NCBI GenBank assembly: GCA_036403155.1 | Contig: DASWRM010000042.1 | Location: 1 to 49,462 of the forward strand | DNA: 49,462 bases | Source: Gaiellales bacterium | Lineage (GTDB): Bacteria; Actinomycetota; Thermoleophilia; Gaiellales; JAICJC01 | Direction of reading: 5' to 3' | Shown here: positions 39,327 to 41,991 of the stretch, piece after piece | How positions within the stretch are numbered: position 1 is the first letter of the stretch | Layout: each line of letters begins with the position of its first letter | Position numbers and translations under genes: made by a program | The notes under the pieces: model-generated | Database searches by the model: none | Told to the model about the DNA's origin: nothing | The model's input: the letters and a program-made list of their open reading frames with translations, nothing else

Positions 39327-40088
39327 TCAGCTCTCCTGGTTGGCGATGGCAGCCATCAGCAGCAGGCCGCCGTCGACCACCACCGAGGTGCCGGTCACGT
39401 AGCTCGCCTTGCCCGACGCCAGGAACGCGACGACGGCGGCGATCTCGCGCGCGTCGCCGGGGCGCCCGGCCGGGATCGCGGGGCGGTCGACCGTGTGCGG
39501 GTCGACGTCCTCGCTGTCTGTCATCGGCGTCGCGATCTCGCCCGGGGCGACGGAGTTCACGGTGATCCCGTGCTCGGCGAGCTCGAGCGCCATGACCTTC
39601 GTCAGCATGCCGAGACCGCCCTTCGCCGCGCAGTACGCCGACGAGCCGCGGAGCGGCACATGCTCGTGCACCGAGGTGACGTTGACGATGCGGCCGCCGA
39701 CACCCTCCTCGACCATGCGGCGGGCCGCACGCTGCGCGCAGAGAAAGGCGCCGTTCAGGTCGACGTCCAGCACCGCCCGCCAGTCGTTCCACTCGAGGTC
39801 GACGAATGGGGCGGTCGTCCCGGTGCCCGAGCAGTTCACGAACACGTCGATGCCGCCGAGCTCCTGCATCAGCTCGTCGATCCGGTCGGCTGCCGCCGGC
39901 AGATCGGTCAGGTCGAGGTGCGCGACGGCAGCCCGCTGCCCGTGCGCCTCGATCTCGTCGGCCGTCCCTCGGGCGCCCTCCTCGTCGCGGTTGTACGTGA
40001 CGCCCACGTCGAAGCCGTCCTGCGCCAGGGCAACCGCCGTCGCCTTCCCGATCCCCGAATCCGAGCCGGTGACGATGGCGACGGGCAG
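39327..40088 (-). CDS. Short-chain dehydrogenase/reductase, apparent CTG start
   Basis: 253 residues from CTG 40088. Rossmann motif VTGSDSGIG (TGxxxGIG), NxxG-type NCSGTG, catalytic Ser in NVTSVHEH and Y-x-x-x-K in SAYCAAKGG, then SVAPGEIATPM. NAD(P)-dependent oxidoreductase of unknown substrate. The first GTG (40007) lies after the cofactor motif, so it cannot be the true start. Upstream codons reach TAG at 40091-40089, directly followed by CTG with GAGGAG six bases before. Co-transcribed with the small acidic ORF, whose stop is that TAG, in the same frame. Confidence 0.9.
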   Translation of the reverse strand: MPVAIVTGSDSGIGKATAVALAQDGFDVGVTYNRDEEGARGTADEIEAHGQRAAVAHLDLTDLPAAADRIDELMQELGGIDVFVNCSGTGTTAPFVDLEWNDWRAVLDVDLNGAFLCAQRAARRMVEEGVGGRIVNVTSVHEHVPLRGSSAYCAAKGGLGMLTKVMALELAEHGITVNSVAPGEIATPMTDSEDVDPHTVDRPAIPAGRPGDAREIAAVVAFLASGKASYVTGTSVVVDGGLLLMAAIANQES

Positions 40089-40259
40089 CTAGATCTCCTC
40101 GTCCTTGTCGGGGCGCAGCCATTCCGTGTCGCGCGGCGGCCGGCCCGCGTCGGGCGAGTTCACGTTGCGCTGCGACGGCAGCTCGTCGCCGCGCCGCTCG
40201 AGCACCTCGGCCGTGTCCTCGTCGACCTCGCGGCTGGGATCGTGTGGCGTCTCGTCCAT
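40089..40259 (-). CDS. Small acidic protein upstream of the SDR
   Basis: 56 residues beginning MDETPHDPSREVDEDTAEVL and ending PRDTEWLRPDKDEEI, rich in Asp/Glu and Arg with no membrane span. It shares the SDR reading frame and ends with TAG immediately before the SDR CTG. Its codons GAG GAG provide the SDR ribosome site. It could be a separate small protein, a leader peptide, or an N-terminal extension separated by a stop. Codon use matches its neighbours. Confidence 0.6.
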   Translation of the reverse strand: MDETPHDPSREVDEDTAEVLERRGDELPSQRNVNSPDAGRPPRDTEWLRPDKDEEI

Positions 40260-40358
40260 GCCTGCCGGGGTTCCCGCGCCGGCCGGCGGTCAAACGCCGC
40301 ACCGATCGCGCTGGGAGCACTGTTCGGCGGCGTCCGAGCTCGACGTAGCAACGACCGT

Positions 40359-40364
40359 TAGACT
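40359..40364 (+). promoter_or_regulatory. Putative -10 (TAGACT) of the ArsR-permease operon
   Basis: TAGACT ends 6 nt before GTG 40371, so the mRNA is probably leaderless. An ArsR protein would be expected to bind near here; I see no clean dyad. Confidence 0.5.
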
Positions 40365-40370
40365 GACGAT

Positions 40371-40709
40371 GTGACCCACGGCGAGCTCCTGCACATCGAC
40401 GAGGAGGACGGCCTCCGGCTCCGGGCGGCGCGACCGCCCGTTCACCTGTCCGAGCGGCGTGCGGACGCCTACCGGGCGCTCGGCGACCCAACCCGCCTGA
40501 CGCTCGCGATGGCGCTGGACGGAGAGGTCGAGCTGTGCGTGTGCGACCTCTCCTGGATCGTCCAGCGGGCGCAGAACCTGGTCTCCCACCACATGAAGGT
40601 GCTCAAGGCCGGGGGCATCGTCCGGTCGCGCAAGGACGGCAAGATGACGATGTACTCGCTGACCGACCGCGGGAGAGCCCTGCTGGCCGCGGCGCCCGAG
40701 GACGCCTGA
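40371..40709 (+). CDS. ArsR/SmtB-family metal-sensing repressor
   Basis: 112 residues. Winged HTH: ADAYRALGDPTRLTLAMALDGE, then QNLVSHHMKVLKAGGIVRSRKDGKMTMYSLT. The ELCVCDL motif with C56 and C58 on helix 3 is the classical metalloid/soft-metal site of ArsR and CadC-like sensors. It should leave DNA on binding As(III), Cd, Pb or similar. GTG 40371; the permease GTG follows its stop by one base, so the two form an operon. Confidence 0.9.
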   Translation: MTHGELLHIDEEDGLRLRAARPPVHLSERRADAYRALGDPTRLTLAMALDGEVELCVCDLSWIVQRAQNLVSHHMKVLKAGGIVRSRKDGKMTMYSLTDRGRALLAAAPEDA

Positions 40710-40710
40710 C

Positions 40711-41991
40711 GTGGGATACGTGCTCTCGCAGATCGGCACGGCGCTGCAGGACGCGTTCCTGATGGCATGGGAGGTCTGGTGGGCGCTCGTGCTCGGCTTC
40801 GCGATCTCGGCGGCGGTGCAGGCGTGGGTGCCCCGTGGCCGCATCGAGTCGGCGCTGTCCGGCGCCGGGCCCCGGCCGGTTGGGCTCGCCACACTGCTCG
40901 GCGCCGCATCCTCGTCCTGCTCCTATGCCGCGGTCGCCATCGGCAAGTCGCTCTTCCAGAAGGGCGCCTCTGCCGCATCCGCGCTCGCCTTCCAGTTTGC
41001 CTCGACGAACCTCGTCTGGGAGCTCGGCCTCGTGCTGTGGGTGCTGATCGGCTGGCAGTTCACGGCCGCCGAATACCTCGGCGGCCTGGTGATGATCGGC
41101 CTGATGACGGCGCTCCTGCGGGTCTTCGTCTCGCCGGCCCTCGAACGCGCCGCGCGCGAGCACGCGCAGGAGGCCGACACCGGCCATCAACACCACATGG
41201 CGGGCGAGGCGATGACCCTTCGCGAGCGGGTGACGAGCGTGTCCGCCTGGTCGGACGTGGCGCACAACTTCCGCGGCGACTGGCAGATGCTGTGGAAGGA
41301 GATCGCCACCGGGTTCGTGCTCGCCGGCTTCGTCGGGCTGCTCGGCAACGACGTCTTCGAGCGGCTGTTCGTGACCAGCGCACCGGGCCCGGTCAGCGCC
41401 GTCGAGAACGCGATCGTCGGCCCCCTCATCGCGGTCGCGAGCTTCGTCTGCTCGGTGGGAAACGTGCCGCTTGCGGCGGTGCTGTGGTCGGGCGGGATCA
41501 GCTTCGGCGGTGTGCTGGCCTTCATCTTCGCCGACCTGATCGTGCTGCCGATCCTCGCGATCTACCGGAAGTACTACGGCCTGGCGTTCACGGTGCGGAT
41601 CACGGCGCTCATGTTCGCGACGATGGTCGCCGCGGCGCTCGCCATCGACGCGCTGTTCACGGTCGCGGGCATCGTGCCGGACACGCGGCCGAGCCGCGAC
41701 GACATCTTCGCCTCCGTCCAGGTGGACTACAAGCTGGTGCTGAACGTGCTGGCGACCGTCGTCTTCGCGGCGCTGTTCGGGCTGACCATGCGGCGCGGGG
41801 CAACCGACCCGGTGTGCGGCATGCAGGTCGACAGAGCCAAGGCGCTGCACGCGGAGTTCGGCGGCCGGACGTTCCACTTCTGCTCCGAGCACTGCCGGCA
41901 CCGGTTCCTCGAGGATCCCGAGCGCTACGCGTCGGGCGCCGCGCGCCCCGCGGGCGGCGCCCACGGCCACGCGCACGCGCACTCGCCGTGA
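40711..41991 (+). CDS. ArsP-type permease fused to a C-terminal YHS domain
   Basis: 426 residues. PF03773-type permease with about eight spans in two halves: GAASSSCSYAAVAIGKSLFQKG (Cys70) and SFVCSVGNVPLAAVLWSGGISFGG, the paired conserved loops, separated by a His/Glu-rich cytoplasmic linker. Residues 366-410 form a YHS metal-binding domain (D366-P-V-C369-G-M...F-H-F-C391-S-E-H-C395), and the tail is His-rich (HGHAHAHS). Role: efflux of an organoarsenical or soft metal is inferred from the ArsR partner and family. GTG 40711. Confidence 0.88.
   Translation: MGYVLSQIGTALQDAFLMAWEVWWALVLGFAISAAVQAWVPRGRIESALSGAGPRPVGLATLLGAASSSCSYAAVAIGKSLFQKGASAASALAFQFASTNLVWELGLVLWVLIGWQFTAAEYLGGLVMIGLMTALLRVFVSPALERAAREHAQEADTGHQHHMAGEAMTLRERVTSVSAWSDVAHNFRGDWQMLWKEIATGFVLAGFVGLLGNDVFERLFVTSAPGPVSAVENAIVGPLIAVASFVCSVGNVPLAAVLWSGGISFGGVLAFIFADLIVLPILAIYRKYYGLAFTVRITALMFATMVAAALAIDALFTVAGIVPDTRPSRDDIFASVQVDYKLVLNVLATVVFAALFGLTMRRGATDPVCGMQVDRAKALHAEFGGRTFHFCSEHCRHRFLEDPERYASGAARPAGGAHGHAHAHSP

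Follow-up and report, generated by a model that had tools for sequence, protein, structure and literature searches.

A predicted CTG start codon abutting the stop codon of a short ORF in an SDR operon of a Gaiellales bacterium

CTG start codons are very rare in bacteria. Initiation at CUG reached about 0.86% of that at AUG in E. coli, and CUG made up 0.024% of bacterial initiation codons, both values as cited in PMC11497404. No enrichment of CTG was seen in Mycobacterium smegmatis, not even in combination with a Shine-Dalgarno (SD) sequence, and leaderless translation was started there only by ATG or GTG, not by CTG (PMC4633059). The sigR gene of Streptomyces uses a GTC start codon, which is repressed by IF3 (PMC5472188). 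Translation can also be coupled by termination-reinitiation, the efficiency of which drops steeply with the distance between stop and start (PMC10666635). The consensus of SigB promoters is GTTTAA-N12-14-GGGWAW in B. subtilis and similar for the Streptomyces SigB homologues (PMC8346170).

Here we analyzed an SDR gene whose frame appears to begin with CTG, located on contig DASWRM010000042.1 in one draft genome of a Gaiellales bacterium (GCA_036403155.1, 79 contigs). The contig stretch analyzed, hereafter the window, comprises 49,462 nt, and the features of the locus are collected in Table 1. The codons following the CTG, read directly in the frame, are CCC GTC GCC ATC GTC ACC GGC TCG GAT TCG GGG ATC GGG, which with the CTG encode LPVAIVTGSDSGIG. 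The earliest ATG, GTG or TTG in this frame is the GTG of codon 28 (position 40007), downstream of the TGxxxGIG motif, so gene finders restricted to ATG, GTG and TTG would choose codon 28 and lose the cofactor motif. An earlier note on this DNA, made from the sequence alone, had placed TGSDSGIG upstream of every such codon, with TAG directly before the CTG, GAGGAG six bases 5' of it, and a 56-codon acidic ORF in the same frame; all of this was borne out by the minus-strand reading, with the ATG of the short ORF at 40259. Pairing of GAGGAG with the ribosome assumes the general bacterial anti-SD sequence, as the 3' end of the 16S rRNA is absent from the assembly.

Table 1 Features of the SDR locus in the window.
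Feature	Coordinates	Strand	Remarks
SigB-type promoter, GTTT (40295-40292) N16 GGGAA (40275-40271)	40271..40295	-	11 nt before ATG 40259
56-codon acidic ORF, ATG to TAG, probably leaderless first cistron	40089..40259	-	codon-position GC; promoter 11 nt upstream
Shine-Dalgarno-like GAGGAG	40095..40100	-	in the 3' end of the short ORF; spacer to CTG of six nt (ATCTAG)
TAG, stop of the 56-codon ORF	40089..40091	-	abuts the SDR start
Proposed SDR start codon CTG	40086..40088	-	aligned codon is ATG (10) or GTG (6) in orthologue loci; weakly structured RNA
SDR reading frame	40088-40086 (CTG) to 39329-39327 (TGA)	-	253 codons, begins LPVAIVTGSDSGIG
SDR oxidoreductase, YohF-like (PRK12743)	39327..40088	-	253 codons; NF009384 profile match

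The encoded enzyme, a predicted oxidoreductase, is an ordinary SDR of the YohF/PRK12743 type with intact cofactor motif and catalytic residues. It scored 402.6 bits against the NF009384 profile over residues 3-252, with a curated cut-off of 264. In the translation, TGSDSGIG occupies residues 7-14, and N112, S139, Y152 and K156 are present. Its relatives in the PDB include 6ux3, 6won and 6oz7.

To locate the start of the protein, we compared the gene with 41 orthologous SDR loci, two of which have the same sequence, drawn from relatives, a class-wide sample and GTDB contigs. The codon aligned with the CTG was ATG in 10 and GTG in 6 of these loci (16/41), and in the remaining 25 an ATG or GTG was located one to six codons from it. 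In all three same-family relatives (L004, L005 and L006; 76-78% identity), ATG stood exactly at the CTG codon, whereas CTG itself was found at this codon in none of the 41 loci. Every one of the 41 loci, and each of 20 SDR paralogues inspected in the same genome, had an ATG or GTG before the cofactor motif. Against the closest relatives, dN/dS of codons 2-27 was about 0.07-0.17, similar to or lower than in the remaining codons, and this purifying selection indicates that the residues ahead of GTG 28 are part of the protein. The SDR frame thus offers no ATG, GTG or TTG compatible with the conserved N-terminus, as expected for a gene with a non-canonical start. Together, the orthologue starts and the selection on codons 2-27 support a protein start at the CTG or in its immediate vicinity, although initiation at the CUG itself is deduced from the alignment. 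The comparative data make this a clean case, in which the predicted start position is fixed independently of the identity of the codon.

The alignment around TAG and CTG, which the earlier note had proposed as a check, also bears on its preference for CTG initiation over TAG read-through or a nonsense split, and this preference is supported. Read-through would produce a fusion of 309 residues, and it might be invoked because the two ORFs lie in one frame and the base after the TAG is C, which is considered a leaky context. However, no conserved extension of the N-terminus beyond the TAG was found in any of the 41 orthologue loci, and the short ORF is without relatives. Of the 35 gene-like ORFs in the window, 15 end in TAG, which marks it as a normal stop here. 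We therefore rejected read-through and the split gene on the orthologue starts and this ordinary usage of TAG, and regard a read-through fusion as extremely improbable.

The 56-codon ORF shows a gene-like pattern, with GC contents by codon position of 0.79/0.45/0.95 that match those of the SDR gene (0.72/0.48/0.95). No convincing homologue of it was found, homology searches and family scans giving only weak matches; one candidate (L076; E 3e-4 among about 300 genomes) was probably a chance match and was discarded. While the shared frame of the two ORFs had been recognized before, the SigB-type promoter that places the short ORF in a leaderless position had been missed. The motif GTTT-N16-GGGAA was the sole match within the 49-kb window, where 0.10 were expected. 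Genome-wide, GTTT and GGGWA at a spacing of 15-17 nt occurred 63 times compared with 5 for the reversed control, an enrichment of about 12-fold. In the 30 loci that were read, the distance to the first ATG or GTG opening at least 40 codons peaked at 10-13 nt (13 of the 24 loci having such a codon). The 11 nt between promoter and ATG 40259 equal this genomic norm, from which the transcript is predicted to start near this ATG; the short ORF would thus probably be a leaderless first cistron and the SDR gene the second. Assignment of the promoter rests on pattern and spacing, and on these grounds the class is real in this genome.

The best SigB/F/G-like sigma-factor gene, with 227.8 bits just below the cut-off of 234.35, is located on contig C40 with several promoter matches around it. 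Promoters of the GTTT-N15-17-GGGWA type cluster around sigma-factor genes on this contig, for example in the region C40:8765-19159 of the source genome (G000), and the genome-wide set points to a sizeable, putatively leaderless stress regulon of the SigB type. When promoter regions of the orthologue loci were compared by pattern spacing, L004-L006 carried GTTT-N16-GGGTA, with the same N16 spacing as in the window, 10-11 nt before the SDR gene's own ATG. The window keeps this promoter-to-ATG geometry, but the short ORF sits between the promoter and the SDR gene. With a leaderless short ORF in front of it, the SDR gene would have to be initiated internally, at a ribosome site of its own.

These observations suggest how the operon may be expressed. 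The SigB-type promoter would give an mRNA beginning at or very near ATG 40259, on which the 56-codon ORF would be translated first, leaderless or nearly so. A ribosome terminating at the TAG would sit over GAGGAG and could re-engage the abutting CUG with initiator tRNA, and output of the 253-residue SDR would then follow that of the short ORF, probably at a much lower level. The sequence anatomy, the conservation of the start position, the promoter class and the low RNA structure were observed, whereas the transcription start, CUG initiation and the coupling by termination-reinitiation are predicted from them. Taken as a whole, this scheme appears to us reasonably probable. With 0 nt between TAG and CTG, the locus suits termination-reinitiation; against it stands that the pair is TAG abutting CTG, versus the overlaps ATGA/TGATG of classical coupling. 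As CUG is weak, low output of the SDR is to be expected. It is tempting but rather doubtful to see the CTG itself as selected, such that a leaderless small protein would be made in excess under a stress promoter while CUG reinitiation keeps the SDR low, IF3-sensitive and dependent on coupling.

We also considered coupling by the melting of a hairpin that covers the start, and this was unsupported because the CTG region is weakly structured. None of 200 shuffled sequences formed as little structure as the RNA around the CTG (z 2.83), and when windows along both genes were compared, this region ranked in the weakest 1-14%. The same weak structure, together with a good SD at six nt, could mean that ribosomes load independently at GAGGAG and start at the CTG with translation of the short ORF being unnecessary, since unfolding by upstream translation seems unneeded. 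Yet CUG alone initiates weakly and reinitiation is favoured where no nucleotide separates stop and start, which makes independent loading unlikely in our view. An error in the assembly, the true codon being GTG, ATG or TTG, was weighed as well, given that the base C is supported by a single draft genome in 79 contigs and that GTG or TTG would differ by one base only; but the codon context is otherwise clean and it would be unlikely a priori for a consensus error to fall precisely on a start codon, so we judge this very improbable. Slightly less credible still is the loss of the start, by which the SDR gene would be an incipient pseudogene or give only a truncated product from GTG 40007. The weakness of CUG speaks for such a loss, as does the in-frame TAG at codon 119 of the same-family orthologue L005 in genome G002, which suggests that the gene may be dispensable in the family, but the open frame, the intact catalytic residues and the strong purifying selection, including that on codons 2-27, argue against it.

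The L005 locus (G002:C55) reads FLCG*RAARR at this TAG, where the window has Q; it is otherwise intact, with the frame conserved on both sides, consistent with a change from CAG to TAG or with an assembly error. Divergent from the SDR operon, the window encodes a regulator of the ArsR type and a predicted permease whose C-terminal tail is metal-binding-like (40362-41991, plus strand). In genome G003 this arsR-permease pair is conserved without an adjacent SDR operon and the SDR gene lies on another contig, which shows that the position of the SDR gene is not conserved, and the same-genus genome G001 is without an orthologue. As far as sampled, the operon arrangement appears to be specific to the source lineage.

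Compared with known systems, the SDR itself scores above the YohF/PRK12743 profile cut-off over the whole protein, with YohF (6won, 6oz7) and an acetoin dehydrogenase (6ux3) as solved relatives, and departs from them only in its start codon and operon position. Like the leaderless short ORFs of mycobacteria (PMC4633059), the 56-codon ORF is short, has its ATG at the predicted transcription start and is without an SD sequence, but its transcript start is a prediction and it abuts a putatively CTG-started SDR gene. As in the termination-reinitiation pairs with ATGA/TGATG (PMC10666635), co-directed stop and start effectively touch and the SD lies in the upstream gene; here, however, they abut without overlap and the downstream start is non-canonical. 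This arrangement suggests how CTG may be tolerated: the short ORF occupies the promoter-proximal ATG, and the SDR gene relies on the SD and the adjacent stop rather than on a leaderless ATG or GTG. The locus is a good, testable new example of a rare but known type of gene start, to which the GTC start of sigR is the nearest experimental parallel. Both genes are actinobacterial and stress-related, each having a strong SD in front of a non-canonical start that gene finders miss, and an expression below that of the operon partner, which for the SDR gene is a prediction. The sigR start is GTC, in the first cistron, conserved across Streptomyces and experimentally proven, whereas that of the SDR gene is CTG, in the second cistron, in one genome, and predicted.
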